The notes beneath the pieces are model-generated. The model had not been told where the DNA came from. It worked only from the letters and a program-made list of their open reading frames with translations, and searched no databases. This document shows, piece by piece, positions 2,488 to 30,418 of a stretch of DNA of 43,196 nt (positions are counted from its first letter, which is position 1; every line of letters begins with the position of its first letter). The position numbers were made by a program, and so were the translations under genes. The DNA is from Clostridiales bacterium (GTDB lineage Bacteria > Bacillota > Clostridia > Lachnospirales > Lachnospiraceae): positions 1 through 43,196 of the forward strand of contig JAAYNW010000074.1 in NCBI GenBank assembly GCA_012520655.1, given 5' to 3'.

Positions 2488-3390
2488 TTATGAGAAAACC
2501 TCCATAATCTTATCCGCAATGAGCTTTGCTCCTTCCACATTAGGATGCGTTCCATCGCTCGTGTATTCCTGTGCGTTTTCATAAGTTATTCCGCAATTAT
2601 ATACGTCGATGAGTTTTACTTCCTTTTTCTGTGCGATTGAGGTAATCCATGCATTGTAATCCCCGGCTGTCGTGCCGTGTGCATTCACAAAAGGAAACTT
2701 TTCTCCCACATCGTTCCATCTTGACACCTCTGCAATGGTGCTGCAATAAATTTCCGCATCGGGATACCAGGCTTTCATTTTATCCAGCATAAGCGCATAA
2801 GCCTCGCTGAAGGTTTCTATATTCCCTTCCTCTACCGCCGAAACGCCGTCATAAGACCCTAAAGATATATTATTCAGCAGGTCATTGGCTCCCATCAGAA
2901 CGATAATTACGTCCGGTCGGGTTCCATCCTCACTCGCCAAATCAGCTATTCTCTTATCGCCGCAGGAATATCTTCCGTCGTGGTTATCCTGAGACTGACC
3001 GCTTACCGTACTGCCCGAATAAGAGGCATTCCGGCAAAGCTCCATCCCCGTCCGGTTTATCACCTGCATCCACCATGTATCGTTTACATCCGTAATTGCA
3101 CCGTTCTCCGGATAGTACTTACTGTAATAATCAGGAATGTAACCGGTAAACGTAGAAATGCTGTCGCCGCATATAGACACCTTCTTTTCCTTCCAAACGG
3201 AAGTTTTCTGTTTCATTACTTCCTTTCGTACTTCTTCTACGGTGAACTCCTCTTTACTCTGTATACCCCTCGACTCGGGCGCGCCTTTTTCCGTATCGAC
3301 GTTCTTTCCGCATGACGTAAACAATAGTGCAAATACAAAGATGCTTGCCGCGATATAAATACCGATATTTTTTCTATTCCCCATTTCCAT
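2488..3390 (-). CDS. SGNH/GDSL-type hydrolase, predicted lipoprotein
   Basis: This SGNH-fold esterase has about 300 residues. It starts MEMGNRKN and is followed by a hydrophobic stretch ending in the lipobox-like LLFTSC, so it is likely a membrane-anchored exported lipoprotein. SGNH blocks are visible: SICGDSIS (catalytic Ser), VLMGANDLL (Asn) and DGTHPNVEGA (Asp-His pair). A 33-residue upstream extension is possible but would place coding sequence before a clear signal peptide and overlap the radical SAM gene, so an ATG at 3390 (or 3384) is preferred. It is the last gene of the minus-strand series and sits 37 bases after the radical SAM gene. The family removes or transfers O-acyl groups on glycans; the substrate here is unknown. 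Confidence 0.85.
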   Translation of the reverse strand: MEMGNRKNIGIYIAASIFVFALLFTSCGKNVDTEKGAPESRGIQSKEEFTVEEVRKEVMKQKTSVWKEKKVSICGDSISTFTGYIPDYYSKYYPENGAITDVNDTWWMQVINRTGMELCRNASYSGSTVSGQSQDNHDGRYSCGDKRIADLASEDGTRPDVIIVLMGANDLLNNISLGSYDGVSAVEEGNIETFSEAYALMLDKMKAWYPDAEIYCSTIAEVSRWNDVGEKFPFVNAHGTTAGDYNAWITSIAQKKEVKLIDVYNCGITYENAQEYTSDGTHPNVEGAKLIADKIMEVFS

Positions 3391-3427
3391 GCCTGCTTTC
3401 CGCCCTATATCCGAAGGCTTACCGTTT

Positions 3428-7849: not shown

Positions 7850-9271
7850 TTACTTTCTTCCGTATTTCCGCTTCTTTATTCCGGGAGGCAGCAGATCATA
7901 GAGAAGCACGGACAAGGCCGTGTAAAACAGTCCCATATTATAAATCATGTAACGGGGCTGTGTGAATATCATTGCGCCTACCACAATGGAGTTCACAATA
8001 ATTCCCCCCAAAACAATCTCCGCCAAAGTCAGCGTACTTTCCGGTTCCATCCATTTCTTATGCCTTCCGGACGCTGTCTTATATAAATAATACAGATATA
8101 CGAAAAGATAAAGCACATATGCTAATATTGCATAGATATTCAGATAGCTGTTTACTCTGGCAATAGAATTTACAAAGCCTTTCCATATATTTGCCGCAAG
8201 CACCTCAGACAAACCGCCCTTATCCTGCAAAAGCAGAGTTTTTGCCATAGCACTGCAATATTCATCATATTTAAGCACCGCATCGATTTCCGAATATTCG
8301 AAATTTTCGGCGATATATCCTTGTATCAACGGATTTATAATGCCATAGCCTATGGCATCGTAGCTGTCCGCATAATGCGTGGATAAGTCCACCCACCCTT
8401 CCGGAGCATATGCTATCCGAAGCCTCTGCTCTTCTGCCTGCGCAAGAATCTCTTCATATAAGTTGCGCACTTGTGCATCTTCGAACAAGGAGACATCCTT
8501 CTCCTGAGAGGTGTAGATCAAAGTGCACAGCATCCCCATAGAATTGCCGGAATGCTCGATCCACGCTCCTCGAACGCAGTAGTTATAAAAACGATCCGTA
8601 AGCTTGCTCGCCACGAATAAGCATATAATCAGTCCGAATAGCAGCAGCAGCTTTTTCAGTTTCCTTTTCTTTATAAGATAATATAAGGAAAACACCGCCG
8701 CCATCAAAGCGAATGCAATTAGCATCTGCTTGCGCAGATTCACTAGCAGAAACGCAAAGCCGGCTGATCCGATCAGGTTCATTTTCTTTTCTTCCAAAAT
8801 ATATTTATATAACTGGACGATAAAAAGCACATATAAAGACAATCCCAGCCCCTCGGTCATTATGCTGTTGATATACGAAGAACCTCTGATTGCCACGAAA
8901 CGACAAAGAAATGTTACTCCGAACTGAAAGCCTATAGATAAAAGTGCTAAAAGCCTGCTGTTATTTTTATATCCCTTTACAGTTAAGGCCAGCTTCCATG
9001 ACGCGTATGCCGCAAGAATGCTTTGAGCAAGCACTACCGGCATCAAGTAACCGTCTTCGCCGAAAAGGCTGCGGAATATCCAAAGAAACGTCGGATATAA
9101 CGGCTCTCTCGTAATGTTCATCGTAGCATAGCTGGAAGAATCCTTACACCACACCGGTCCGTCATAAAACGGAAAAAAGAGATAGAAGCCCAAGCATACG
9201 ATAAGCAGACCTATATCCCATTTTTCAAAAGATGTAATGTATTTTTTTATTTTATTAATCCACGTCATCAT
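7850..9271 (-). CDS. Polytopic membrane protein, GT-C-like
   Basis: The 473-residue protein has about 10 transmembrane segments. Its first outer loop, CKDSSSYATMNITREPLYP, follows the pattern of GT-C or O-antigen-type membrane glycosyltransferases (D-S-x-x-Y then R-x-P-x-Y-P). No named family is recognised with certainty. Its 5' end overlaps the upstream GT2 gene by 17 bases, suggesting translational coupling. A pairing of a GtrB-like GT2 that charges undecaprenyl phosphate with a GtrC-like transferase is plausible. Confidence 0.7.
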   Translation of the reverse strand: MMTWINKIKKYITSFEKWDIGLLIVCLGFYLFFPFYDGPVWCKDSSSYATMNITREPLYPTFLWIFRSLFGEDGYLMPVVLAQSILAAYASWKLALTVKGYKNNSRLLALLSIGFQFGVTFLCRFVAIRGSSYINSIMTEGLGLSLYVLFIVQLYKYILEEKKMNLIGSAGFAFLLVNLRKQMLIAFALMAAVFSLYYLIKKRKLKKLLLLFGLIICLFVASKLTDRFYNYCVRGAWIEHSGNSMGMLCTLIYTSQEKDVSLFEDAQVRNLYEEILAQAEEQRLRIAYAPEGWVDLSTHYADSYDAIGYGIINPLIQGYIAENFEYSEIDAVLKYDEYCSAMAKTLLLQDKGGLSEVLAANIWKGFVNSIARVNSYLNIYAILAYVLYLFVYLYYLYKTASGRHKKWMEPESTLTLAEIVLGGIIVNSIVVGAMIFTQPRYMIYNMGLFYTALSVLLYDLLPPGIKKRKYGRK

Positions 9272-10196
9272 TTTTTATTTTCCCCTGAATCATATTCAAA
9301 CGGAATTCGAAGTCCCTTCTGTTCTTAAGAGCCATGTTGGATAGAATCATACCTGAAAAAAAGGCTTGAACCGCCGCAAGCATAACGAAGCAACAGACAA
9401 ATAAGGTAGGAAATTTATCCACTACACCCGTTCTAATAAAGTCTATCAGTATCGGTATGAAGAACGCAATGGCAACTACCGCGAGAACAAGCGCAAGCAA
9501 GGAGAAAAAGCCGAATGGCTTGTAATCCTTATACAGCCTGCCGATCGTTCCAAGCACCCTTATACCATCCGAATAAGTATTCAGCTTCGACTCGCTGCCC
9601 TCGGGTCTGTCTCTGTAATCCACAATAACATTTTCAATCTGCATATTGTTAAAAACCGCATGAATGGTCATCTCTGTCTCTATCTCAAAGCCCTTGGACA
9701 GCACAGGGAAGGTCTTGACAAAGCCATAACTAAATGCCCGAAAACCCGTCATAATATCCTTGATCTCGCATCCGAACAGGTGATTGATCGTTGCTCTCAC
9801 AAGGCTGTTTCCCACATTGTGAAAAGGTCTTTTATTCTCAGTAAAATAGGTAGAGGAAAGCCTGTCCCCCACTACCATATCCGCATGGTGGTTTAGTACT
9901 TTATCCACCATCTCGGGCGCATATTCCATAGGATAAGTATCATCCCCATCCACCATAACATAACACTGCGCGTCTATCTCGCGGAACATCCTGCGTATTA
10001 CATTGCCTTTTCCCTGCATATATTCATACTGCACCACAGCTCCCGCCTCTGTGGCAAGCTCCACGGTACGGTCTGTAGAATTATTGTCATACACATAAAC
10101 CACTGCCTCCGGCAGTGCTTTTTTTGTGTCGGATATTACTTTTGCAATCGTCTTCTCTTCGTTATAACATGGTATTAAAACCGCAATTTTATCCAT
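9255..10196 (-). CDS. GT2 glycosyltransferase, polyprenyl-phosphate sugar synthase type
   Basis: The 313-residue protein starts MDKIAVLIPCYNEEKT, a classic GT2/GT-A nucleotide-binding start, with the metal-binding DGDD motif near residue 82. The DIMTGFRAFSYGF and GFEIETEM segments are shared with dolichyl-phosphate mannosyltransferase/GtrB-like enzymes. Two hydrophobic segments at the C-terminus anchor it in the membrane. The ATG at 10196 has GGAGAG about eight bases upstream. An earlier ATG at 10226 has a poorly spaced site and was not used. Its likely role is to transfer a sugar from a nucleotide donor to undecaprenyl phosphate for the downstream GT-C-like proteins. Confidence 0.88.
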   Translation of the reverse strand: MDKIAVLIPCYNEEKTIAKVISDTKKALPEAVVYVYDNNSTDRTVELATEAGAVVQYEYMQGKGNVIRRMFREIDAQCYVMVDGDDTYPMEYAPEMVDKVLNHHADMVVGDRLSSTYFTENKRPFHNVGNSLVRATINHLFGCEIKDIMTGFRAFSYGFVKTFPVLSKGFEIETEMTIHAVFNNMQIENVIVDYRDRPEGSESKLNTYSDGIRVLGTIGRLYKDYKPFGFFSLLALVLAVVAIAFFIPILIDFIRTGVVDKFPTLFVCCFVMLAAVQAFFSGMILSNMALKNRRDFEFRLNMIQGKIKNDDVD

Positions 10197-10316
10197 CTTA
10201 CTTCTCTCCGATGTCCTTCCTGTCATTTCCTTTATTCTATGTCCTGATAAAATTTATTCTAGCAGAATATCCTCCATCCGTCTATCAAAATCAGCTAACC
10301 TCGTCCCCCGGGTATA

Positions 10317-11852
10317 CTAGAATCCCTGATAAATAAACTCCGCCGCACTGTAGCCCGGACCGTAATTTCCAAGCAATATCGTATAAAATAAAAGCGCATA
10401 CCAAATCATCCACCTTATGGGAAGCTTCTTTTTCTCTATCCTCTCTCGTACGCTTTCCTTCTGCTGCATAACGGATACCGAAAGCAAAATAAGCAAGGAT
10501 CCTGCAGCTATTGTAAATTCTATGAAATCCAACCCCAAAGTAAATACGGACCCGTCGAACAATATTCCCGCATTCCATACGCTTACTGCTCCCTTCAGCA
10601 TATGAAAAGCATCCGCCGTGCTGTCCGCCCGGAAGAATACAAAGCCGATATTGACAAGGAAAAACGTTCGCAGTATGCGAAAAATATTCACCAAGCGTTT
10701 CTTCGGGTCGATACGGAATCGGGCCATAAATTTATCGAAAAAGGGCGTCAAAAGCTCCCCGGACACGATGTAAAACCAATGAAGCAGACCTGAACCGATG
10801 ACATACTTCCAATTTCCCCCGTGCCATATGCCCACCGCAAACCAAAGTGCAAACATCGCAAGAAACGTAGTGAACTGTTTACCGCGTTTCTTGCCGAATC
10901 TCTCTCTCATTTTCTTGGATAGACGCGTAAACGTTCCGGTTCTAAGCAGCGGATAAAACACATATTCTTTCATCCACACGCCCAGGGTAATATGCCACTT
11001 CCTCCAGTACTCCGAGATATTTTTGGCAAAAAAAGGAGTTTCAAAATTCTCGGGAAGCCGAATTCCGAATGTCTGAGACATTCCGAGTACGATATCCATA
11101 CAGCCGGAGAAATTCGTATACAGCTGGAAAGCATAGCATACTGTGGCCAGCCATATGTATGCGCCGGGATAATCCCCGTAATTTCCGTAAACCGTATCCA
11201 CAACAAGACGCATCCTTTCGGAAATTACCAATGTCTTAAAAAAGCCCCATACCATCCTCTGCAATCCGAAAGTCACTTCCCGATAGTTAAAAGGATGCGG
11301 TGTAAAAAACTGTTCCCCGTCCTCTCTGTACCGCAAGATGGGCCCTGACAAAATAGACGGGAAATACATGCCGTATAATGCCAGTTTAAAAAAATTCCTC
11401 TGAGGTACGGCGATACCGTTATATACATCAATGACAAAACCGAGTACCGAAAATGTATAGAAAGAAATTCCGAGCGGCACCATAAACTTTAGTCCGCCAA
11501 GAACAGCAGCCTCTGCCCCGAACAAGCCTGCTATCCCGTTTATCGTATTGATGCCGAAGTTCACATACTTCAGCACGAACAACGACCCGATAAGCAGTAA
11601 AACCACCCCTGCCATAGCAGCTCTTTTTCCCTTCACGCTCTCCGTCCTGTCCATAATGCATATACCTATATAGGCCGCAAGACAAGCGCCCACCGGATAT
11701 AAGATAAGTATTCCGTTTCCGGAAAGCAGATAGTATGCAATACCGGATAAAAGCAAAAATACCCATTGCGTTTTTCGGGGAATCAGATAATATATAATTA
11801 ATATACATGCATAAAAGCACAAAAAGTAAAAGGATGTAAACGTAGCTCCCAT
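10317..11852 (-). CDS. MBOAT-family membrane O-acyltransferase
   Basis: This protein of about 511 residues has 10-12 membrane segments. It carries the MBOAT signatures MVPLGISFYTFSVLGF, NFETPFFAKNISEYWRKWHITLG and the His motif ALWFAVGIWHGGNW. DltB, PatA and AlgI use this fold to pass an acyl group across the membrane to an extracellular acceptor. It is unusual that the same operon encodes an ACP and an FkbH-like loader upstream, which points to a carrier-protein thioester donor as for DltB. The start at 11852 (MGATFTSFY) was chosen because the upstream extension is hydrophilic. Other possible ATGs lie at 11891 and 11906. Confidence 0.88.
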   Translation of the reverse strand: MGATFTSFYFLCFYACILIIYYLIPRKTQWVFLLLSGIAYYLLSGNGILILYPVGACLAAYIGICIMDRTESVKGKRAAMAGVVLLLIGSLFVLKYVNFGINTINGIAGLFGAEAAVLGGLKFMVPLGISFYTFSVLGFVIDVYNGIAVPQRNFFKLALYGMYFPSILSGPILRYREDGEQFFTPHPFNYREVTFGLQRMVWGFFKTLVISERMRLVVDTVYGNYGDYPGAYIWLATVCYAFQLYTNFSGCMDIVLGMSQTFGIRLPENFETPFFAKNISEYWRKWHITLGVWMKEYVFYPLLRTGTFTRLSKKMRERFGKKRGKQFTTFLAMFALWFAVGIWHGGNWKYVIGSGLLHWFYIVSGELLTPFFDKFMARFRIDPKKRLVNIFRILRTFFLVNIGFVFFRADSTADAFHMLKGAVSVWNAGILFDGSVFTLGLDFIEFTIAAGSLLILLSVSVMQQKESVRERIEKKKLPIRWMIWYALLFYTILLGNYGPGYSAAEFIYQGF

Positions 11853-11946
11853 AAAAAAGAGATCCTTTCCGGGCTTGCTATGGTCAGACATTTTCCTTAC
11901 AAGCACATCATCTACCGATATAAAAGCAGGAGGACTAATAATTACG

Positions 11947-12351
11947 ATGCTTAACTTAAAAGTACACCATATCGGATATTTAGTAAAAAAAATAAATGCG
12001 GCAATATCAGAATTCCAGCATCTGGGATATGTGATCCTTCAGGACATCGTTTATGATGACAGCCGCAAAGTAAATATTTGTTTTATGGAGAAGGACGGAT
12101 ACACAGTAGAGTTAGTCTCTCCCGCCACCCCCGACTCCGTCGTTGCCGGACTCTTGAAAAAATACAAAAATTCACCTTACCATTTCTGTTATGAATCCAC
12201 CGATTTCGAAAACGATCTTGCCGCCCTTACGAAAGACGGGTATACTGCCATAGATATGCCCACGCCCGCTCCCGCTCTCGGAAACAGCCGCGTGACATTT
12301 TTAATGAACGCAAATCTTGGCATGATCGAGCTTCTGGAGGTTCGCTCCTGA
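11947..12351 (+). CDS. VOC-fold protein (glyoxalase / methylmalonyl-CoA epimerase-like)
   Basis: The 134-residue protein has two beta-alpha-beta-beta-beta modules. All four expected metal ligands appear to be present: His8 (KVHHIGYLV), Glu55 (YTVELVSP), His79 (SPYHFCYE) and Glu128 (GMIELLEV). This fits a functional metalloenzyme such as an epimerase, lyase or glyoxalase. AGGAGG at 11928-11933 precedes the ATG at a rather long 13-base spacing. It is encoded opposite to, and between, the MBOAT and ACP genes. A role in making or detoxifying the C3 acyl unit used by the FkbH/ACP pair is attractive but unproven. Confidence 0.8.
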   Translation: MLNLKVHHIGYLVKKINAAISEFQHLGYVILQDIVYDDSRKVNICFMEKDGYTVELVSPATPDSVVAGLLKKYKNSPYHFCYESTDFENDLAALTKDGYTAIDMPTPAPALGNSRVTFLMNANLGMIELLEVRS

Positions 12352-12379
12352 TTTTTACGAGCTTATAGTTTCGACCGGG

Positions 12380-12619
12380 TTATATCTGGCTCATAATGAT
12401 GTCAGCCATCTCACCCACATTCTTCATCGTAACAACCTGCCCCATGGTAAACTTCACGCCGAACTCCTGCTCCACAGCGGCAATCAGATTAATATGCTCC
12501 AGAGAATCCCAATCCTCTATATCATCTGAAGTTGTCGCCTCGTTTACCATAATGGATTCATCATCAAACACATCTCGAAATACTTCATTTAAAGTATCAA
12601 AAACTTCTTCTCTGCTCAT
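12380..12619 (-). CDS. Acyl carrier protein
   Basis: The 79-residue acidic protein has the phosphopantetheine motif WDSLEHINLI, with Ser39 as the attachment site. The four-helix ACP pattern (FDTLNEVFRDVF, VEQEFGVKF, VGEMADII) is clear. It lies 19 bases downstream of the FkbH-like gene in the same direction, with an AAAGGA site before the ATG. It is a dedicated carrier rather than the fatty-acid ACP, since no fab genes are nearby. It probably holds the acyl unit loaded by the FkbH-like protein. Confidence 0.93.
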   Translation of the reverse strand: MSREEVFDTLNEVFRDVFDDESIMVNEATTSDDIEDWDSLEHINLIAAVEQEFGVKFTMGQVVTMKNVGEMADIIMSQI

Positions 12620-12638
12620 AGCTATTTCCTTTCATCTC

Positions 12639-14414
12639 TCAAACATCGATTACCTTATTCTTATTTTCATAATTATCGGGTATCTCATATTCCCATATAG
12701 TATTGCCTGCAGTATCCTCTTCTATCTTATGAAATCCCTGCAGCTCATAGAAATTACTTACCATTTGGTTTTTTGCTGTCGGATAATAGTATCCTCTTAT
12801 CCTGCTCAGCCCTTCCTTGCGGCACTCTCTCACAAGGCAATCCATCATGGCGTATTCCATATCCCTTTTTAGTACACGACAGCTCATAATCCATAAATCT
12901 ATATGAACAACTTCCGCATCCTTCTTTCCGATAACGACGGAAACTATTCCGTTATCCCCGAATTTATCCTCCAGCTTTCCATAGAGATCAATATATTCCG
13001 GAGATTTCGCTGTCTGCTCAATCTCACTTTGCGTATACCTTTTCGTTGTCAGGTTGAACTGATTGCTTTTATTGGTAAGCTGGGCAATTCTGGACATATA
13101 CATAGGCTCAAAGGGTTTTATCGTCGCGTGCATCTTAAGCGAACGGAGATATTCGGCATAGTCCGCAAAGCCCGCCTGCTGCTTTTCGCGCAGGATATTG
13201 GCCTTGTACATATCGTTTCTCTTTCTGTCGTCCTCCGAAAGTCCCGTCACCTCAAAGAACCCCGAACGATCCAGCACGTGTATATACTGTTCCGGTGTTC
13301 TGATGTCAGGTACCGCCACTCCCGGAACATGAGCTCTCACGATTTCTCTCTCTGCCGGATTATCGTCCACAAACACAAGACTGTCCGGCAAGACATTGAG
13401 CTCCGAAGCAATCGCTTCGATATTTATACTCTTCGGCTCCCAATTGGCTTTTATCAGAATAAAATCCTCCGGCTTCAAGATCCCTTCCGGATGATTTAAA
13501 CCTGCCAGAGCATTTACCTCTTCATTTTTCGAATTGACATTGAGCATGATGCCAATTTCCTTCTGCGCCTTTATATAGCTTTGAAATTCCGAATAAACTT
13601 GTCCGAGGGATGTCTCTTGACCGATTTCCAGATTCTCTGCACCGTCATCACCGACAACTCCTCCCCACAGCGTATTATCCAAGTCCAGTACCAGTGCTTT
13701 TTTATTTTTTCCGAAAACCGCCTTGATTATATTGGATAAGTTAAACGCGAATTCAGGAATCGCCTGCATGCACATACAGTACTTATACATATGCCAATAA
13801 AAAGGATCCGACCATTTGTCGAGCCCGTACGCTGCTGCCATATAGTTTATATCATTAATATAAAAGTTCTCATGACTTTCCGCATAGTTATAAAAACGTT
13901 CATTTATTTTCGTTATAAAGCGGATCCGCCCGTGGATATCGCTGGCATCTTTGTTTCCGAGCAGACGGTAAAAAGGATATTCAAAATTATTCTGTATAAT
14001 AGGGCAATGATACGTCTCCCCAAGCTTGTCCCACACGGCTGCAAAATGCTCGTACTGCGAATCTAACAGGGCTTCTATTTGCTCCCTGCTATCCCCTACC
14101 TGCGGATATGCGGTAATATTCCTGTTGCTCGTATGAAGAAAAATGATATCCGGCGCAAAGGAAGATAGTTCGGCATTCGCGAACATGGCCTCTTGAAAAT
14201 ACTGTCCATATTCCGACTCGTAGAACTCCGGCTCGATTCCCTGATCCAGAAGAAACAATTCCAGCATACGGACGATATCATGAGTGGTGCTTCCGCCGAG
14301 CACCGCTATCTTTTTCTTAAGACGCGGTATACCCTTTTCTAAAAGTTCCCTCTTTAGCTTTTTGGACTTTTTTAAAATATACTCACTGTCAAAAGGATAT
14401 TCTAATTCTTTCAC
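12639..14414 (-). CDS. FkbH-like HAD-IIIC family protein with C-terminal GNAT-like domain
   Basis: The 591-residue protein has three parts. The N-terminal domain holds an LGGSTTHDIVRML nucleotide-like loop (residues 39-51). The central HAD domain has DLDNTLWGG (Asp244, Asp246, Thr248) and a late VDDNPAER acidic motif (about 349-356). The C-terminal half (about 420-585) looks GNAT-like, with LTNKSNQFNLTTKR typical of FkbH. Known FkbH/OzmB-type enzymes dephosphorylate 1,3-bisphosphoglycerate and load glyceryl onto an ACP. The ACP gene directly follows, supporting that role here. The start codon is GTG, with GGGAGAG six bases upstream. A terminator separates it from the SGNH gene upstream. Confidence 0.9.
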   Translation of the reverse strand: MKELEYPFDSEYILKKSKKLKRELLEKGIPRLKKKIAVLGGSTTHDIVRMLELFLLDQGIEPEFYESEYGQYFQEAMFANAELSSFAPDIIFLHTSNRNITAYPQVGDSREQIEALLDSQYEHFAAVWDKLGETYHCPIIQNNFEYPFYRLLGNKDASDIHGRIRFITKINERFYNYAESHENFYINDINYMAAAYGLDKWSDPFYWHMYKYCMCMQAIPEFAFNLSNIIKAVFGKNKKALVLDLDNTLWGGVVGDDGAENLEIGQETSLGQVYSEFQSYIKAQKEIGIMLNVNSKNEEVNALAGLNHPEGILKPEDFILIKANWEPKSINIEAIASELNVLPDSLVFVDDNPAEREIVRAHVPGVAVPDIRTPEQYIHVLDRSGFFEVTGLSEDDRKRNDMYKANILREKQQAGFADYAEYLRSLKMHATIKPFEPMYMSRIAQLTNKSNQFNLTTKRYTQSEIEQTAKSPEYIDLYGKLEDKFGDNGIVSVVIGKKDAEVVHIDLWIMSCRVLKRDMEYAMMDCLVRECRKEGLSRIRGYYYPTAKNQMVSNFYELQGFHKIEEDTAGNTIWEYEIPDNYENKNKVIDV

Positions 14415-14486
14415 TTTAGCTCTCCCACAAATTCTTCACTCTTTAAATCAAGAAAATACACGCCTTTTCTTTTCTTATTTTATGTT

Positions 14487-14522
14487 AATACAAGGCGGAT
14501 GCTGTAACATCCGCCTTGTATT
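14487..14522 (-). terminator. Intrinsic terminator of the 14567-15619 gene
   Basis: Perfect 15-base arms (AATACAAGGCGGATG, 14487-14501, and its complement, 14508-14522) flank a six-base loop. It lies 45 bases past the stop of the SGNH gene on the minus strand and before the FkbH-like gene. The trailing U-tract on the minus strand is weak (ATTAACATAAAA), so termination efficiency is uncertain. Confidence 0.75.
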
Positions 14523-14566
14523 TTAACATATTTTACTATTTGCCGCAATCTAACATTGTATGCGTT

Positions 14567-15619
14567 CTAATTATTCCTTGTTGTCTCATAATTTAAAATA
14601 ATTTCCGAAAGCTTCTCCGCATATTTCCTGCGGCCTTTTTCCGATAGATGAATACCGTCTTCCAAATACTCATCCGCCGTATAAGTATCTAATCCGATTC
14701 CTTCATATGCATTCAGAAACAACGTATTCTCGTCTGCCGAAACATTGCCGCACACACGATAATAAGCAGCAAGGGTACCGCCCCCGTTATCTACCATATT
14801 GCCATCTCCCAGATAAGCGCCGTCTTTTCCCCAGAACTGCGCATAGTTAGGCGAGCATAGTACGATTTCCGCCTCCGGGAAGCTTCCTCTCAGCCTATTA
14901 ATTGCATTTCTCAAGGCGCCTACATAAGTATATTCCTGATTCGTATTGGAGTCGTTATTTATCGGAATCGCACTAAGGAAATCATTCATTCCGTATTCAA
15001 TGACGAAGTAATCTGTCTTGTCGAAGTCACAAGATGCGAACACTTCTCCTGCCCTGAATCCGTCCAAAATGCCTGCATCGATATTTCCGCAAATTGCATT
15101 TACCACTCCCTGCAGCCCGCGGGAACTCCATGTCTCAAATACCGCACTTTCATACTTGCTAAGCGCGGCAGTAGTTCCTCCCATAGCCAGATTATATACA
15201 TCGGCATTGCACAATTCTCCCGTAATAGCAGCTATTCCCGTTTCATTTCTATAACCATCGAGAATACTGTCACCCAGAAAAACTATCTGGAGACGGCTTT
15301 CATCCGCCTGCTCCGGCACCGCTTCCGTCACTGCTTGTTCTTCAATCTCCGGTTCGTTTAAATCCTCCGGTGAGACAACTACAGTGCTCTCATTGACCTG
15401 CTCCTCCTTCTGAGCATTTTCATTTTCCTTATTCATTTCTTCCGTCGCCTGGGGAACTTCCTGTACTACTATCGCATCTCCCGATGCCTCTCCCCCCATA
15501 TCCCGGTCTTTCTCGACTTTCCCGCAGCCCGCGATAAACAGAAACATAGCCAGTAAAACAAAAGCTGACATTATATTTCTTTTTGCATACAATACTGTTT
15601 TTTTCATTTTTCTCCTCAT
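14567..15619 (-). CDS. SGNH/GDSL hydrolase lipoprotein with acidic linker
   Basis: The 350-residue protein has a hydrophobic signal ending at a FIAGC lipobox (Cys32). An acidic, low-complexity Glu/Gln/Val-rich linker (about 35-108) then holds the enzyme away from the membrane. The SGNH domain shows FLGDSILDGY (Ser), VIEYGMNDFL (Asn) and LEDGIHLSEKG (Asp-His). GGGAGG seven bases before ATG 15619 supports this start. A second ATG at 15607 also has a good site, GAGGAG. It has its own extended -10 promoter and terminator. The extracytoplasmic location and position beside the FkbH-ACP-MBOAT genes suggest a role in adding or removing acyl groups on surface glycan. Confidence 0.87.
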   Translation of the reverse strand: MRRKMKKTVLYAKRNIMSAFVLLAMFLFIAGCGKVEKDRDMGGEASGDAIVVQEVPQATEEMNKENENAQKEEQVNESTVVVSPEDLNEPEIEEQAVTEAVPEQADESRLQIVFLGDSILDGYRNETGIAAITGELCNADVYNLAMGGTTAALSKYESAVFETWSSRGLQGVVNAICGNIDAGILDGFRAGEVFASCDFDKTDYFVIEYGMNDFLSAIPINNDSNTNQEYTYVGALRNAINRLRGSFPEAEIVLCSPNYAQFWGKDGAYLGDGNMVDNGGGTLAAYYRVCGNVSADENTLFLNAYEGIGLDTYTADEYLEDGIHLSEKGRRKYAEKLSEIILNYETTRNN

Positions 15620-15914: not shown

Positions 15915-17366
15915 ATGCTATTTAATTCTATGGCTTTTGCCATATTTTTGCCTATTGTTTTTTTATTATACTGGATATGTCCTTCCAGATACCGCTATAT
16001 ATTTCTGTTAGCTGTCAGCTATTATTTTTATATGAGCCTCGACATAAAGTACGTATTTCTCTTACTGTTTACCACGGCTGTTTCATATCTGACCGCAAGA
16101 AGCTTTGAAAAAGCCCAAAGTCTGTTTTCAAAAAGAATCGGCTTGCTCGCGGGTATTCTTGCACTGACAGGAGTCCTTTTCCTATATAAATACTTAGGAT
16201 TTTTCTTCGAGATTATTAATGCTGTCACGCAGGCATTTTCAATCCCTATACAGACCCCTACTGTAAAGCTTATGCTGCCTGTGGGAATTTCATTCTACAC
16301 ATTCCAGACTCTGGGCTATTTAATCGATGTATATATGGGAAAATATCCGGCAGAGAAGCATTACGGTTATTACAGTCTGTTTGTTTCCTTTTTTCCTCAG
16401 CTACTATCCGGTCCTATCGGACGAGGGGAGCTGCTGCTTCCTCAGTTCAAAAAAGTACGGATTTTCGATTCCACCAAGGCTGCTTATGGCTTAAAGCTTA
16501 TGGCTGTCGGTTACTTTAAGAAGCTGGTGGTAGCAAACCTCCTCGTCTCCAGCGTAGATTCCGTGTATGATAATGTGAATAGCTATATCGGCCTTGTTTA
16601 TATTATTGTTACCCTTATGTTTTCCATTCAGATTTACTGTGATTTCTCCGGTTATACGGATATCGCCGTAGGAACCGCCATGCTGTTCGGCATCGAGCTT
16701 ACGCAGAACTTCAAGAGTCCTTATTTTTCCCATAGCATTAAGGAATTCTGGAGTCGCTGGCATATATCCCTCTCTACCTGGTTCAGGGATTACGTATACA
16801 TTCCTCTGGGTGGGAATAGAGTAGGCAAAGTAAGGCATGCATTGAATCTGATGATTACGTTTCTGGTAAGCGGGCTTTGGCACGGTGCCGGCCTGACATA
16901 CCTTGTATGGGGTTTTTTGCACGGTTTTTATCAGGTTGCGGAGAGTTTCTGTCTCCGCGGCAGGAAACGCTGCAGCGATTCTAACCGCAAAGGGCTTCCA
17001 GGATTCTTATCCTTTGTTCTTACTTTCTTCCTTGTCTGCTTCGCATGGATCTTTTTCCGTGCAAACAGCCTTGCGGATGCATGGAGAATGATAAGCTTAA
17101 GCTTTTTCCTGATTGGAGACTTGAGTGAATATTTAAAGACAGCCGTCATTTGTCTGGATATGACCTATACTCATATGGTCTATATTTGTATCCCTGTCAT
17201 TTTACTCGGTATATATGATTATGCTTCTCTCAAAACAGACTTTATCGCTTATATATCCTCGAAAAAAATCTGGGTACGCTACCCTGTTTATATCTTGTTT
17301 TTACTTATCATTCTATTGTTTTCGGAGAAAGGAGTATCGACTGAATTCTATTATTTTCAGTTCTGA
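15915..17366 (+). CDS. MBOAT-family O-acyltransferase (AlgI type)
   Basis: The 483-residue protein has 11-12 transmembrane segments and a textbook AlgI/DltB-family sequence. Signatures are MLPVGISFYTFQTLGYLID, FKSPYFSHSIKEFWSRWHIS and the catalytic-His motif VSGLWHGAGLTYLVWG. It is followed after nine bases by an SGNH/AlgJ-like gene, the usual partner in alginate- and exopolysaccharide-acetylation systems. The likely reaction is O-acetylation of an exported polysaccharide, with the acyl group moved across the membrane. It is divergent from the SGNH lipoprotein gene at 14567-15619. Confidence 0.92.
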   Translation: MLFNSMAFAIFLPIVFLLYWICPSRYRYIFLLAVSYYFYMSLDIKYVFLLLFTTAVSYLTARSFEKAQSLFSKRIGLLAGILALTGVLFLYKYLGFFFEIINAVTQAFSIPIQTPTVKLMLPVGISFYTFQTLGYLIDVYMGKYPAEKHYGYYSLFVSFFPQLLSGPIGRGELLLPQFKKVRIFDSTKAAYGLKLMAVGYFKKLVVANLLVSSVDSVYDNVNSYIGLVYIIVTLMFSIQIYCDFSGYTDIAVGTAMLFGIELTQNFKSPYFSHSIKEFWSRWHISLSTWFRDYVYIPLGGNRVGKVRHALNLMITFLVSGLWHGAGLTYLVWGFLHGFYQVAESFCLRGRKRCSDSNRKGLPGFLSFVLTFFLVCFAWIFFRANSLADAWRMISLSFFLIGDLSEYLKTAVICLDMTYTHMVYICIPVILLGIYDYASLKTDFIAYISSKKIWVRYPVYILFLLIILLFSEKGVSTEFYYFQF

Positions 17367-17375
17367 TAAAATCTG

Positions 17376-18395
17376 ATGAAGGAAAAAAGAAAAATGAGGC
17401 CTTATTTGAATTTTATATTGAAATGTATTGCGGTAAGCGGCATTGCACTTATACTTCTGCTTTTGCTGAATTACCGCTATGAGCAGGTAATGGAGGATCC
17501 ATATGCCGATGCACACAAGTTCGACTTTATGGATTCCACCTATAATAATATTCAGATTTGCAATATAGGAAGTTCTCACGGCGAATATGCTTTTTATTAT
17601 GAGGAATTAGCGAAGCAGGACGGCTACGAATGCTTCAACTTCGCCATGGCAAGTCAGACTTATAACTACGACCTTGCCATACTGTCCATGTACCGGGAAC
17701 ATTTTGCCGACAACAGCCTCATGTTCATTCCGGTTTCTTACTTTTCTTTTAACAACGAAGTAATTAACGAAGCAGAGCAGGAATCCTTGAATGCCAAGTA
17801 TTATACCTTCCTGTCTCCAGGGTATATTCCCGATTACAGTCCCTATGTGGATCTGGTAACCCATAGACTGCCTGTACTGTCTGCCGGAGAGGATATCATT
17901 AAGATCTTTCCCTCCTTATCCATAAAAGCATTAGCTGCGGACAACGACGTTCCTGCTTCTGAGGAATTCTATGAAAAAGCTCTGAACCGCTATCAACGGC
18001 ATATGGAAAATAAAGAAGATTATTTCCTGCAGGAACGCATCGATAATCTGTATGATATTTTAAACTTCTGCAAGAATAACGGTATTACTCCCATATTAAT
18101 TACGACACCCTATACTTCTTATTATACCGATATGGTCTCCGGAGAGTTTAAGACGGAGTTTTACAATACTATCAGTACCATCGCAAGCGCCACGCGCACT
18201 CCTTATTATGATTATTCGGAGGATACGCGCTTTTCCGCCCATTTGGAGTATTTTGCCGACGCCGACCATTTGAATACGGAAGGTGCCGTACTCTTCATGG
18301 ATACAATAAAAGAAGAAATCCCCGAATATAGGGAATTTCTTCTGAATAATATACCTATTCATAACGGAGACCCCGGCTGGCAGCCTCCCTATTAA
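17376..18395 (+). CDS. AlgJ/DltD-like SGNH-fold membrane-anchored protein
   Basis: The 339-residue protein has a single N-terminal hydrophobic anchor and an extracytoplasmic SGNH-like domain. The Ser block reads ICNIGSSHGEYAFYYE, and the Asp-His pair is in DADHLNTEGAVLF near the C-terminus. DltD, AlgJ and AlgX have this form and partner MBOAT proteins. It sits nine bases after the MBOAT stop, so the pair is one operon. Its stop codon overlaps that of the convergent aminotransferase gene by four bases. Confidence 0.82.
   Translation: MKEKRKMRPYLNFILKCIAVSGIALILLLLLNYRYEQVMEDPYADAHKFDFMDSTYNNIQICNIGSSHGEYAFYYEELAKQDGYECFNFAMASQTYNYDLAILSMYREHFADNSLMFIPVSYFSFNNEVINEAEQESLNAKYYTFLSPGYIPDYSPYVDLVTHRLPVLSAGEDIIKIFPSLSIKALAADNDVPASEEFYEKALNRYQRHMENKEDYFLQERIDNLYDILNFCKNNGITPILITTPYTSYYTDMVSGEFKTEFYNTISTIASATRTPYYDYSEDTRFSAHLEYFADADHLNTEGAVLFMDTIKEEIPEYREFLLNNIPIHNGDPGWQPPY
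18301..18343 (-). terminator. Candidate terminator of the minus-strand operon, inside the 3' end of an opposing gene
   Basis: Read on the minus strand, AGAAGAAATTCCC (18343-18331), an eight-base loop and GGGATTTCTTCT (18322-18311) form a 12-bp stem with one bulged base. TTTATTGTAT follows. It lies about 50 bases past the aminotransferase stop codon, within coding sequence of the plus-strand SGNH gene. Confidence 0.45.
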
Positions 18396-19489
18396 TATCT
18401 ATATTCATTACATGCATTTATAACCAGCTGAATTTCTTCTTCCGTCATCTCCGGAAACATAGGCAGCGTGATGCAGTGTTCCGCCAAATATTCTGCATTC
18501 GGACAATCGCCTTTTCGATAATTCAAATGTGCATATGCTCTCTGTAGATGGCAGGGCACCGGATAATGCCTGTTGCACTCGATCCCTTTCTCCTCCATAA
18601 AGTGCAGGAACGCTTCCGCATCCGGTACGGTAATAACAAATAAATGGAACACCGGCTCCGTATTGTCCGGATGTGCCTGCATCCTGATCAGAGGATTAAC
18701 TATCTCACGCATATAACGCCATCCGATATCCTGTCTGCGGCAGGTCCACTCCTTCAGATACTTCAGACTGACGCTGAGGACAGCTCCCTGTATTCCCTCC
18801 ATACGCATATTGTAACCTACTACGTCATGATAATATCTTACCTTACACCCCTGATTCTTCAGAATATTTATATAGTCGATGTAATCTTTGTTATTCGAGG
18901 TCACACTGCCCGCTTCCCCGAAGGCATAGAGGTTCTTACCCGGATAAAAGCTGAAACATCCTATATCCCCAAGGCCCCCCACCATTTTCCCTTCATACCT
19001 GGCATTGTGAGCCTGTGCGCAATCCTCTACTACGTACAAGCCATGCTTATCCGCTATTTCTTTTACTTTTCCGAACTCAAAAGGCTGTCCGTAAAGGTGT
19101 ACACCGATGATTGCCTTCGTTTTTTTTGTAATCTTCTTCTCAATAACTTCCGGATCAATTTCCCATGTATCTTCTGTACAATCTACAAAAACCGGAGTTG
19201 CCCCCGTATAAGTAACCCCCCAGGCGCTGGCAATGTAAGTATTGGCCGGAACGATTACCTCGTCTCCCTCCCCGATGCCTAGAGCGAGCATGGCAAGCTG
19301 AATGGCAGATGTTCCGTTATCCACTCCGGAAGCCGCTTTAACTCCTATGTATTCAGCAAATTCCTTATCGAACCTGTCCGCAAACTTACCGCCCGAGAAA
19401 GCCGTTTCCTCACAGACTTCCTCAATCGCCCTCATATATTCTTCTTTATGGTTTCTGTAATTTCTTCCTAAATCAATTCTTTTTAGCAT
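18392..19489 (-). CDS. DegT/DnrJ/EryC1/StrS-family PLP sugar aminotransferase
   Basis: The 365-residue protein is of full length. The catalytic lysine is Lys185 in CFSFYPGKNLYAFGEAG, and the PLP-contacting Asp is in LYVVEDCAQAH (Asp156). The PGKNL-type motif is typical of 3-keto-sugar aminotransferases such as FdtB/QdtB-like enzymes acting on dTDP-3-keto-6-deoxyhexose. That finer call is inference, since no RmlA/RmlB genes are in the window. It overlaps the upstream GT2 gene by 17 bases. The product would be a nucleotide-linked amino sugar for the surface glycan. Confidence 0.93.
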   Translation of the reverse strand: MLKRIDLGRNYRNHKEEYMRAIEEVCEETAFSGGKFADRFDKEFAEYIGVKAASGVDNGTSAIQLAMLALGIGEGDEVIVPANTYIASAWGVTYTGATPVFVDCTEDTWEIDPEVIEKKITKKTKAIIGVHLYGQPFEFGKVKEIADKHGLYVVEDCAQAHNARYEGKMVGGLGDIGCFSFYPGKNLYAFGEAGSVTSNNKDYIDYINILKNQGCKVRYYHDVVGYNMRMEGIQGAVLSVSLKYLKEWTCRRQDIGWRYMREIVNPLIRMQAHPDNTEPVFHLFVITVPDAEAFLHFMEEKGIECNRHYPVPCHLQRAYAHLNYRKGDCPNAEYLAEHCITLPMFPEMTEEEIQLVINACNEYRY

Positions 19490-28909: not shown

Positions 28910-30418
28910 TCAGTGTCCCGTAAGAATCAACCAAATAAACTGTATATTGGAACGGACATATCTCTTTAATAAGCGTCTCGGGTCTTGAATGAGACGATAC
29001 AGCCACTCCAGATAGAATTCCTGCACCCATTTGGGCGCGCGTTTAGCCGTTCCGGCATGAAAATCAAATGCCGCACCGACCCCCAGCATAACCGCATTTA
29101 TTTCTCCTTTATGCTCATACATCCATCTTTCCTGTTTGGGAGCTCCAAGCCCCACCCATAGGAAATCAGGTTCAGTCTTACTTATTTCTTCAATGATTCT
29201 CGCATCCTCTTCCGCCGTCATCTTCCTGAAAGGGGGTGAATATGTTCCCACAATTTTTAACCGAGGATAACGTTTCCTAAGGTTCGCTTCGAGAGATTGT
29301 AACGTCTCTTCCGTGCTTCCGTAAAAATAATGGCGGTATCCTTTTTCCTCCGATAGTTTTAATATCTCAGGCATTAAATCGGGGCCTGCCACACGTTGCG
29401 CATCTTTGAAGCCACGCAGCCTGCATATAAGCGATAACGGTTTCCCGTCAGGAATGGCAATTGCCGCATCGTTCTGAATCTTGCGGTATGTCTCATCGTT
29501 ATACGCCAAAACCGTCGTATGCACATTGGATACGCATACGTACTCTCCCCGCAGCCGCTCCAGGTTCTTCGTCAGATAACCTATGACAGACCGCATATTG
29601 GTTACTGCAATGTCCACCCCGAGTATATTGCATGTCTCCGGCTGGTCCATACAAATTTTATTCCCGCTGCCGTATTTTCTGTATTTTAGAAAAATAGGAA
29701 AAATTTCTACGTCTTCCAGCAAGTACCGTCTGTATAATCGTTTCGGTTCTTTTATAAGCCGATAGAACCATTCAAGCCCTATATAGCTAACCCACTTCGG
29801 AGCGCGTTTTACTACACCTGCTTCAAAATCAATGGTCGCACCTATGTGTAATGTAAGCGGCACTTTTAACTGCTCTCTATAGCGGTAATAGAACTTCTCC
29901 TGCTTCGGTGTCCCCAGTCCAATACAAAGTATATCCGGCTTTGCCGCGTTAATTTTCCTTATAATATAAGAGATTTCTTCTACATCGTTTTCAAATGCAT
30001 AGCTGGGAGAATAAACCCCCGCAATCTTCAGATTCTTATATTTTTTCATGAGATTAATGGCCGCTTTCTTGGCCACTCCCTCGGCCGCTCCCAGCAAAAA
30101 GACAGAAAAGCCTTCTTTTGCAGCCATGTCGCACACTTCCGGAAAGTAATCGGAACCCGATATCTTCTCTTTAATCGGAGTACCCATCCATCTGGACATC
30201 CAAATAAGAGGCTTACCGTCCGTCAGCACCAAATCAGCTTTTTCATATATATCGCGAAAAAGTCCATCATGTTCTATTTTCACTATATGATCCACATTCG
30301 GTGTGACAACATAACTGTTTCTGCCTTCCAAAATAAGCCGTTTGGCTTCCCGCACCGCTTCTTCCATCGTTAAATTGTCGACATGTGTATTCAAAAATTT
30401 TATTCTCTTCTCACTCAT
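28910..30418 (-). CDS. Tandem two-domain WecG/TagA/CpsF (GT26) glycosyltransferase
   Basis: The 502-residue polypeptide contains two complete GT26 domains, where the family is normally a single domain of about 240-250 residues. Domain 1 (about 6-246) has TPNVDHIV, LTDGKPLIW (Asp67), CIGLGTPKQE and VKRAPKWVSYIGLEWFYRL. Domain 2 (about 262-502) repeats these as VSNVHTTVLA, IPDGKPLSL (Asp324), WVGLGAPKQE and AKRAPKWVQEFYLEWLYRL. Both keep the Asp equivalent to the TagA catalytic residue and the basic C-terminal appendage. GT26 enzymes add ManNAc or related sugars to lipid-linked GlcNAc. Two active domains could add two successive sugars. The frame is uninterrupted, with AGAGG nine bases before the ATG. 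Confidence 0.92.
   Translation of the reverse strand: MSEKRIKFLNTHVDNLTMEEAVREAKRLILEGRNSYVVTPNVDHIVKIEHDGLFRDIYEKADLVLTDGKPLIWMSRWMGTPIKEKISGSDYFPEVCDMAAKEGFSVFLLGAAEGVAKKAAINLMKKYKNLKIAGVYSPSYAFENDVEEISYIIRKINAAKPDILCIGLGTPKQEKFYYRYREQLKVPLTLHIGATIDFEAGVVKRAPKWVSYIGLEWFYRLIKEPKRLYRRYLLEDVEIFPIFLKYRKYGSGNKICMDQPETCNILGVDIAVTNMRSVIGYLTKNLERLRGEYVCVSNVHTTVLAYNDETYRKIQNDAAIAIPDGKPLSLICRLRGFKDAQRVAGPDLMPEILKLSEEKGYRHYFYGSTEETLQSLEANLRKRYPRLKIVGTYSPPFRKMTAEEDARIIEEISKTEPDFLWVGLGAPKQERWMYEHKGEINAVMLGVGAAFDFHAGTAKRAPKWVQEFYLEWLYRLIQDPRRLLKRYVRSNIQFIWLILTGH

Follow-up and report, generated by a model that had tools for sequence, protein, structure and literature searches.

The window, the whole 43,196-nucleotide stretch of DNA analysed here, is a surface-sugar gene cluster of a gut bacterium (Lachnospiraceae; source genome 94.6% complete), and an FkbH gene set lies inside it (Table 1). 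In the open reading frame (ORF) list of the window, the order is SGNH lipoprotein, FkbH, acyl carrier protein (ACP) and MBOAT; all of these genes look intact, and 19 bases separate ACP from FkbH. The five reading frames named in a preliminary description of this DNA are present where it placed them, the SGNH frame at 2488 being listed as 2488–3489 with the earlier, shorter start inside it. Its gene set holds for the listed genes, although a VOC gene between ACP and MBOAT was overlooked. Likewise, the MBOAT at 10317 was correctly placed, but the picture of a single MBOAT missed a second one and its DltD-like partner. Promoter-like sites in the window were at the level of shuffled sequence (22 found vs. 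23.3 expected), and a megablast search of positions 10317–14414 against E. coli gave no match.

Table 1. Genes of the window discussed in the text, with proposed roles and family assignments
Feature	Position	Strand	Family
FkbH; N-terminal domain, HAD-IIIC phosphatase and GNAT-fold C-domain; proposed C3-acyl loader	12639..14414	-	TIGR01686
Acyl carrier protein; Ser39 in WDSL	12380..12619	-	PF00550
VOC protein; fold as in glyoxalase I and methylmalonyl-CoA epimerase; opposite strand	11947..12351	+	PF13669
MBOAT 1; His344 in WHG; proposed to pass acyl groups across the membrane	10317..11852	-	PF03062
SGNH/GDSL lipoprotein encoded upstream of FkbH; may transfer or trim acyl groups outside the cell in the manner of DltD	14567..15619	-	PF13472
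GT2; AglJ-like relative of polyprenyl-phosphate sugar synthases (sub-cut-off); adjoins MBOAT 1	9255..10226	-	TIGR04182
MBOAT 2; divergent pair with 17376-18395	15915..17366	+	PF03062
DltD-like SGNH partner of MBOAT 2	17376..18395	+	PF04914
Second SGNH/GDSL lipoprotein; candidate member of the set	2488..3390	-	PF13472 (on ORF 2488-3489)
WecG/TagA/CpsF glycosyltransferase; surface-glycan context marker	28910..30418	-	PF03808 (425.6 bits)
DegT aminotransferase	18392..19489		

The proposed loader matches the FkbH family model TIGR01686 (278.5 bits vs. a cut-off of 146.65) over model positions 3–320 of 323. Residues D244, D246, K328, D350, D351 and C512 are kept in 65 of 65 relatives and S295 in 64 of 65; the roles assigned to the HAD residues and the C-domain cysteine are presumed from family knowledge. 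The predicted model (pLDDT 87.7) resembles PDB 3slr (TM 0.89 by target), and its C-domain resembles GNAT folds. Loss of a catalytic cysteine was considered and rejected. The residue preceding SKN is Asn here and Cys in 3slr, but this position is variable (Cys in 20/65 relatives) while the SCR cysteine is invariant, and the Asn is therefore not read as a defect. By analogy with other FkbH proteins, the cargo here would be glyceryl. FkbH also occurs in two phage records, full length at 64% identity in a fecal phage and partial in the other. The carrier protein (PF00550, 26.6 bits vs. 20.8) has its attachment serine in WDSL, and each of the 129 FkbH-proximal ACPs from the loci surveyed also has a serine at the Ser39 position, in keeping with the functional ACP serine on which the preliminary description depended.

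MBOAT 1 scores 52.9 bits against PF03062 (cut-off 27), and its His344 is kept in all 109 ungapped MBOATs near FkbH. DltB is its nearest solved structure, both by sequence and by fold (TM 0.73–0.76 by target). Because its score against the DltB equivalog TIGR04091 (140.4 bits) is under the cut-off of 375, we regard it as a DltB-like MBOAT and not as DltB. The tree places MBOAT 2 (PF03062, 107.1 bits) apart from MBOAT 1, and linkage favours the latter as the partner of FkbH and ACP. The SGNH lipoprotein upstream of FkbH has a lipobox read by eye as FIAGC and matches PF13472 (49.1 bits; 63.8 bits for the gene at 2488; cut-off 32.9), with no DltD match; the DltD-like gene (PF04914, 29.4 bits vs. 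22.7) pairs with MBOAT 2. A GDSL gene occupies the equivalent place in relatives L111 and L112. In relatives L174 and L165, in which the DHHW/ALGX partner was read, MBOAT, AlgX/DHHW, FkbH and ACP stand in a run. The SGNH genes of the window could also be unrelated esterases. The GT2 scores 207.2 bits against TIGR04182 (cut-off 325), and its homologue also adjoins MBOAT 1 in relatives L069 and L097.

Linkage was evaluated in 66 FkbH neighbourhoods of the window's own family, picked regardless of linkage and some with flanks shorter than 8 kb. Within 8 kb of FkbH, ACP was found in 59 of 66 loci and MBOAT in 31 of 66 (24/41 where flanks were nearly full), compared with about 3% MBOAT linkage predicted by the frequency of MBOAT genes in the genome that holds the window. 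A cultured carrier of FkbH, ACP and MBOAT is Eisenbergiella tayi DSM 26961 (L125). Positional counts were made on these loci plus the window (67), with distant positions as the internal control. ACP lies at +1 from FkbH in 53/65 and MBOAT at +2 in 13/63 and at -1 in 8/65, while MBOAT occurs at +4 to +7 in 0 to 2 of 50–58. A search of 299 genomes for MBOAT 1 gave 14 top matches, counting that of the window itself; in 10 of them FkbH is no more than 8 kb away, and all nine MBOATs of at least 480 bits are FkbH-linked, a cut-off chosen after the list had been viewed. Genome G224 contains a well-scoring MBOAT 1 relative (380 bits) but no FkbH, and in three others (G190, G233, G262) the MBOAT 1 relative and FkbH are on different contigs. 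The queries used to draw an 80-locus set were MBOAT-linked, and P values in this study disregard tree structure. The FkbH–ACP–MBOAT architecture recurs across genera and in Alphaproteobacteria, and its linkage across genomes, which the preliminary description proposed as a check, is above chance.

No MBOAT was found within 8 kb in 35 of the 66 FkbH loci, some of which have short flanks, and some FkbH loci adjoin NeuB, GNAT or MaoC/SDR genes (NeuB in 8/66). Such loci imply that FkbH and ACP can also feed other pathways, and they fit an alternative in which the C3-acyl-ACP is spent in the cytoplasm, N- or O-acylating a nucleotide sugar, maybe as in flagellar nonulosonic acids, with the MBOAT being an ordinary O-acetyltransferase. 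A relative with FkbH–ACP–MaoC–SDR (L222), a Maritalea FkbH locus with pseB and a neuB-like gene, Campylobacter cj1302 and the DegT aminotransferase of the window also speak for this reading. However, a Pfam scan of 30 window proteins found no GNAT, LbetaH or WcbI-type acyltransferase, and MBOAT is tied to ACP and FkbH by position and rank, which is not expected of a generic acetyltransferase. We consider cytoplasmic use unlikely.

The VOC protein has the VOC superfamily fold (PF13669, 63.8 bits vs. 27), scores 46.1 bits against the methylmalonyl-CoA epimerase model TIGR03081, under the cut-off of 114.95 for membership, and has glyoxalase I as its nearest PDB entries (2qh0/3hdp, E 3e-31). H8 is kept in 26/26 ungapped sequences and E55, H79 and E128 in 27/27, which we take to be the metal-ligand positions. 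Among the 33 genomes in which VOC finds a match, FkbH is present in 28, vs. 63 of 299 overall (P 4e-17, tree structure ignored), the remaining five having no FkbH above the cut-off; at E 1e-20 FkbH is present in 23/23 genomes, with the cut-off chosen after viewing the list. Against membership of VOC in the set, the gene is on the opposite strand in the window, and the close relatives G003 and G107 have the set but a VOC gene about 110 and 91 kb distant, respectively. Some FkbH sets include MaoC, often with SDR, and others VOC, and the two were not found together in 146 loci (P 0.0014, tree structure ignored), a pattern pointing to alternative ways of modifying the C3 unit; neither lies within 8 kb in 53 of 93 FkbH–MBOAT loci. 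The VOC protein may epimerise or isomerise the acyl-ACP at C2, and the presence of VOC or MaoC/SDR in these sets leaves room for acyl groups other than plain D-glyceryl.

The Dlt-like route could be kept with an acyl group other than glyceryl, VOC or another enzyme yielding a lactyl, enol-derived or other C3 unit. The nearest PDB neighbour of VOC, glyoxalase I, makes S-lactoyl thioesters, and sister loci have MaoC, SDR or a transketolase pair alongside MBOAT. However, no reductase or dehydratase adjoins FkbH in the window, and VOC chemistry alone would explain epimerisation more simply. A non-glyceryl product appears quite unlikely, and we retain glyceryl as the predicted cargo.

Characterised FkbH proteins are known from polyketide, tetronate and NRPS pathways (excerpts of PMC7489565 and PMC8949500), and a small-molecule pathway of polyketide or tetronate-like type might lie in the glycan cluster by chance. 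FkbH loci of this type occur in Methylosinus and Pseudalkalibacillus, and one FkbH of G437 lies within a 2141-aa frame. However, no PKS was found in the genome, where ketosynthase matches to PF00109 were limited to a long one and one of 44 residues, and no KASIII was found in the 30 window proteins scanned. As far as the flanks reach, none of the 146 relatives whose FkbH ORF exceeds 1300 bases has an ORF >1500 aa within 8 kb; L093, outside the 146 by its short FkbH ORF, has a 1540-aa ORF. The ketosynthase matches and the flank survey led us to reject a polyketide context for this locus, in agreement with the earlier claim that polyketide genes are absent, and the small-molecule reading is highly improbable.

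The earlier framing of FkbH proteins as known for polyketides, in contrast, needs revision. The Campylobacter jejuni flagellar glycan locus contains the fkbH-domain gene cj1302 (excerpt of PMC7099621), and on the flagellin of C. jejuni a Pse derivative carries di-O-methylglyceric acid as a minor component (excerpt of PMC3958885), a modification to which cj1302 may be linked. Glycan contexts extend to other lineages. An FkbH–ACP–MBOAT–VOC set with an SGNH-like protein is located on Sinorhizobium meliloti pSymB near rkp capsule export genes, and an equivalent set with an SGNH-like protein on a Rhodobacteraceae plasmid near capsule-export genes, these Alphaproteobacterial partners being called by motif alone with no relevant Pfam match. 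The S. meliloti FkbH frame is broken into two ORFs in the record of strain 1021 and open in 2011. Titles and abstract openings of the open-licence PMC articles found in searches contained no description of an FkbH–ACP–MBOAT set. No article in that library paired FkbH with O-antigen, and none brought MBOAT and polysaccharide together with DltD and an acyl carrier protein; three paired FkbH with polysaccharide, and the two pairing FkbH with MBOAT were on suomilide and aeruginosin.

Taken together, we favour Dlt-like acylation of a cell-surface glycan fed from glycolysis through FkbH, ACP, VOC and MBOAT/SGNH, with a probability of roughly two in three; the reactions, acyl group and acceptor are deduced from family resemblance. 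The best match to DltA in the genome scores 69.9 bits, with none above the cut-off of 559.85. A Dlt-like logic in which FkbH stands in for DltA, as first proposed, is well supported by comparative evidence, namely linkage, kept residues, DltB likeness, the lack of a DltA match above the cut-off and the AlgX/DHHW runs. From family chemistry, FkbH would take the D-glyceryl of 1,3-bisphosphoglycerate, its HAD domain would remove the phosphate, and the acyl would be held on the invariant cysteine of the GNAT-fold domain before passing to the phosphopantetheine arm of ACP. The VOC metalloenzyme would probably invert or isomerise C2 of the alpha-hydroxyacyl thioester, from D- to L-glyceryl. As in the Dlt system, ACP would hand the acyl to the DltB-like MBOAT on the inner side of the membrane, and outside the SGNH lipoprotein would put it on the glycan or edit it there.

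More broadly, FkbH–ACP–MBOAT sets might form a widespread family of modular systems for acylating surface glycans, from Lachnospiraceae to the S. meliloti capsule locus, that draws on glycolytic 1,3-bisphosphoglycerate without ATP-driven adenylation. Its tailoring would be interchangeable (VOC giving L-glyceryl, MaoC/SDR or transketolase pairs giving other C3-derived acyls), with placement outside by a DltB-like MBOAT and SGNH/AlgX; we give this generalisation even odds. If true, the proposed route would add an acyl-donor pathway to extracellular polymer chemistry, from glycolytic acyl phosphate to carrier protein to MBOAT. It would also offer an enzymology for the glycerate substituents of bacterial polysaccharides, chemically known in gellan, and propose a job for glyoxalase-like VOC genes otherwise annotated as detoxification enzymes. 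S. meliloti would be a tractable model beside gut Lachnospiraceae.

Non-polyketide FkbH is already known from the Campylobacter flagellar glycan locus, and the FkbH-loaded route probably differs from the D-alanine system in its loading enzyme. Like DltABCD D-alanylation of teichoic acids, the set combines a carrier-protein donor, a DltB-near MBOAT, an SGNH gene and a surface polymer context; unlike it, FkbH replaces the adenylating DltA, the MBOAT is under the DltB cut-off, the acyl is predicted to be a hydroxy acid and VOC is present. AlgI/AlgX-type polysaccharide acetylation also uses MBOAT and SGNH proteins, and relatives L174 and L165 pair MBOAT with an ALGX/DHHW protein, but here ACP and a loader adjoin the MBOAT. 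In polyketide pathways, FkbH and OzmB carry out glyceryl loading. FkbH/ACP loading in polyketide and tetronate pathways (Mad7/Mad14, excerpt of PMC7489565) involves the same FkbH family and an adjacent ACP. Unlike those pathways, no PKS or KASIII was found here, and the acyl is predicted to exit via MBOAT. We know of no MBOAT role in the C. jejuni flagellar glycan locus. According to the excerpts cited above, that locus also has FkbH among glycan genes, and a sugar there bears a glycerate-derived acyl, but the sugar is a nonulosonic acid on flagellin. The predicted product resembles the L-glyceryl ester of gellan, a bacterial exopolysaccharide that carries ester-linked L-glycerate (excerpt of PMC9104527).

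By gene content, the window, contig C42 of a 2.85 Mb genome (94.6% complete), is a surface-glycan cluster. Its FkbH, the proposed C3-acyl loader, has its closest named relatives in Lachnospiraceae. Besides the features tabulated, the window holds more GT2 genes, GtrA, DUF2142/6044/6056/6311 membrane proteins, WecG/TagA, a nucleotidyltransferase/mannose-6-phosphate isomerase gene and methyltransferases. Judging by the polyprenyl-sugar GT2 and the multi-pass membrane proteins, the glycan may be completed outside the cell, which is the site where MBOAT would act. The 1380-aa Big_2-domain protein adjoins the glycan genes and may be a surface protein that they carry or modify.

Features of the window around FkbH and its acyl carrier protein (ACP)
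Feature	Position	Strand	Remark
GT2 related to polyprenyl-phosphate sugar synthases	9255-10226	-	next after MBOAT 1
MBOAT 1	10317-11852	-	
VOC (glyoxalase/methylmalonyl-CoA-epimerase fold)	11947-12351	+	between ACP and MBOAT 1
ACP	12380-12619	-	
FkbH	12639-14414	-	TIGR01686
SGNH/GDSL lipoprotein	14567-15619	-	same strand as FkbH, ACP, MBOAT 1
MBOAT 2 and DltD-like gene	15915-18395	+	divergent, upstream of the minus-strand set
Big_2-domain protein	30725-34867		

FkbH, ACP and MBOAT recur together across genomes at fixed positions, a co-occurrence that the preliminary description had put forward as a check. FkbH was above cut-off in 63 of 299 Lachnospiraceae genomes, sampled at one per genus; a sample of the phylum had it in 14 of 398. 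From the family, 69 FkbH regions were taken, leaving out the over-cut-off matches G251:C118, G226:C90 and G097:C108 (genome:contig); three loci with a short FkbH ORF (L077, L093 and L100) were excluded from the counts. Within 8 kb of FkbH, the resulting 66 loci, many with flanks shorter than 8 kb, held ACP in 59, MBOAT in 31, VOC in 13, MaoC in 12 and NeuB in 8. MBOAT was that near in 24 of the 41 loci with nearly full flanks; the expected share of genes, calculated from the five MBOATs of the window's genome, is about 3%. Because polysaccharide loci could be MBOAT-rich anyway, the position profile inside the same loci (the 66 plus the window) is a fairer control. Relative to FkbH, ACP occupied gene position +1 in 53/65 loci, and MBOAT occupied +2 in 13/63, +3 in 5/61, -1 in 8/65 and -2 in 5/64, with 0 to 2 per position at +4 to +7 (50–58 loci each). 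In the reverse direction, 10 of the 14 best MBOAT 1 matches in the 299 genomes (the window's own included) lay within 8 kb of FkbH. All nine genomes with an MBOAT 1 match of at least 480 bits, a threshold picked after the list was seen, have FkbH above cut-off (P 5e-7; P 2e-6 minus the window's own genome). A second set of named loci contained MBOAT in 62/80; as the best 80 of 589 relatives, drawn with MBOAT-linked queries, they show arrangement, not frequency. On FkbH and MBOAT trees, clustering by linkage exceeds that of shuffled labels (0/500 shuffles as low), and the many switches indicate that the association was repeatedly gained or lost.

With 278.5 bits, the window FkbH clears the TIGR01686 cut-off of 146.65. 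Across 65 aligned proteins, the window's and 64 from Lachnospiraceae, D244, D246, K328, D350, D351 and C512 (SCR motif) are invariant (65/65), and S295 is kept in 64. Residue 294 (window 13533-13535), preceding the SKN motif, is Cys in 20/65, Asn in 15/65 and Asp in 10/65, and is perhaps a subfamily marker. The predicted FkbH model (mean pLDDT 87.7) best matches 3slr, the Bacteroides fragilis BF1531 HAD structure (TM 0.89 by target), followed by GNAT folds, which fits a loader that carries an acyl-transfer domain. The attachment serine proposed earlier for the ACP (Ser39) is borne out, being present in 129/129 ACPs near FkbH. Similarly, His344 is found in 109/109 ungapped MBOATs near FkbH, five further ones being gapped there. 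DltB is the best solved-structure match of MBOAT 1 by sequence (E 3e-19) and, for its predicted model (pLDDT 85.4), by fold (TM 0.73-0.76 by target), ahead of HHAT, PORCN and LPCAT3.

The VOC gene, absent from the preliminary description, belongs to the FkbH set. FkbH is above cut-off in 28 of the 33 family genomes with a VOC match, versus 63/299 overall (P 4e-17, genera treated as independent); the other five are G021, G115, G224, G230 and G292. The distance between VOC and FkbH is no more than 8 kb in 18 of the 33; in three FkbH-bearing genomes VOC is farther off (~110 kb in G003, ~91 kb in G107, another contig in G190). Of the solved structures, those nearest the window VOC are 2qh0 and 3hdp, whose deposited names are lactoylglutathione lyase and glyoxalase I. 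H8 (26/26 ungapped), E55, H79 and E128 (27/27 each), which we take to be metal-binding positions, are conserved, and invariant too in three Alphaproteobacterial VOCs at 18–25% identity. Among VOC enzymes, methylmalonyl-CoA epimerase moves a proton at the carbon adjoining the thioester carbonyl, and glyoxalase I forms alpha-hydroxyacyl thioesters through an enediolate. Because of this known chemistry, C2 inversion of D-glyceryl-S-ACP would be the simplest proposal for VOC. VOC (25 loci) and MaoC (31 loci) occur together in 0/146 loci (P 0.0014), and VOC and MaoC/SDR are read as alternative tailoring steps. None of VOC, MaoC and NeuB is within 8 kb in 52/93 FkbH-MBOAT loci; there, the acyl group would be transferred unmodified or the tailoring gene would lie elsewhere. 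At locus L119 (10791-12973), the genes after FkbH are a transketolase divided into N and C parts, MaoC, ACP and MBOAT; the Pfam reading is from L119 only, with size-matched genes in L132, L143 and L158, and such loci perhaps build a different acyl group on the FkbH-loaded unit.

Beyond the family, a plasmid search found FkbH relatives in 117 records. The neighbourhoods of 11 hits were examined, of which S. meliloti 1021 and Subdoligranulum lack annotation; S. meliloti 2011, likewise unannotated, was added as a twelfth. The order on S. meliloti ml47 pSymB is VOC (a short ORF, 36 bits), MBOAT, a 409-aa protein, ACP and FkbH, with capsule genes including ABC export and RkpR ~4 kb past FkbH; the VOC ORF at the same place in 1021 and 2011 is longer (203 aa). 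The FkbH frame, single and open in 2011 and ml47, is split over two ORFs in 1021 (L227 7311-9373), which reflects either divergence between strains or an error in the sequence. In several further S. meliloti records, the FkbH match is broken into two or three segments. Rhodobacteraceae SC52 has, in order, ACP, FkbH, MBOAT, a 358-aa protein and VOC. A Pfam scan of the 409- and 358-aa proteins gave no significant match; their motifs (GGSTT...DPGH and GSS...DAAH, respectively) appear SGNH-like by eye. The 409-aa protein between MBOAT and ACP (L221 6977-8206, S. meliloti pSymB) is annotated as a TonB-dependent receptor, probably a misannotation of an SGNH-type acyltransferase-like protein, judging by motif.

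Other neighbourhoods are ACP-FkbH-methyltransferase-VOC in Paroceanicella (no MBOAT annotated in that stretch), FkbH-ACP-MaoC-SDR in Subdoligranulum, and, in Erwinia, a cluster containing MaoC, SDR and ACP that looks broken. The loci of Pseudalkalibacillus and Methylosinus are polyketide-like, and those of Niveispirillum, Maritalea and Aquisphaera are WcbI-, nonulosonate- and glycan-linked, respectively. Among 13 FkbH regions of the phylum sample, MBOAT occurs in one (L254), and VOC, MaoC or NeuB in some; genome G437 has polyketide-sized neighbours. FkbH-ACP therefore looks like a portable module for C3-acyl groups that has several outlets, of which the MBOAT outlet, found in two phyla, is one. 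At L122 (5698-8614), FkbH is in a run with phosphofructokinase and a DnaX-like gene, with no MBOAT seen near, either a glycolysis link or chance; the Pfam reading is from L122 only, L126, L131, L138 and L160 having similar sizes (ACP in 4/5). The FkbH in a fecal bacteriophage record (MT835480.1 71374-73143) shares 64% identity with that of the window and is either a cargo gene or bacterial DNA within the record.

In the mechanism that we infer from this conserved gene set, with a putative acyl group, VOC reaction and acceptor, FkbH would convert 1,3-bisphosphoglycerate into glyceryl-S-ACP, as described for the family in excerpts of PMC7489565; FkbH stands in for adenylation domains in NRPS (PMC8949500, in excerpt). 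VOC may then invert C2, MBOAT may, like DltB, carry the acyl group across the membrane, and the SGNH lipoprotein, by analogy with DltD, may put it on the glycan or edit it there. Such a substituent occurs in nature as L-glycerate on gellan (PMC9104527, in excerpt), and L- instead of D-glycerate would need an inversion such as the VOC step.

The Dlt-like logic proposed in the preliminary description holds in that the set would work likewise and DltB is the nearest solved MBOAT; yet this is no Dlt system, as no DltA above cut-off was found in the genome and MBOAT 1 is under the DltB equivalog cut-off (140.4 vs 375 bits). All four Dlt roles occur in one gene run in relatives' MBOAT-DHHW-FkbH-ACP loci (domains assigned by Pfam in L174 and L165 only). 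The C. jejuni flagellar glycan locus places FkbH in a glycan setting, as in the window: excerpts describe cj1302, a gene with an fkbH domain (PMC7099621), and di-O-methylglyceric acid on flagellin (PMC3958885). FkbH in glycan loci is already known; an FkbH-ACP feeding MBOAT and a VOC partner of FkbH, neither found in print in the open-licence PMC literature, are new as far as that literature shows.
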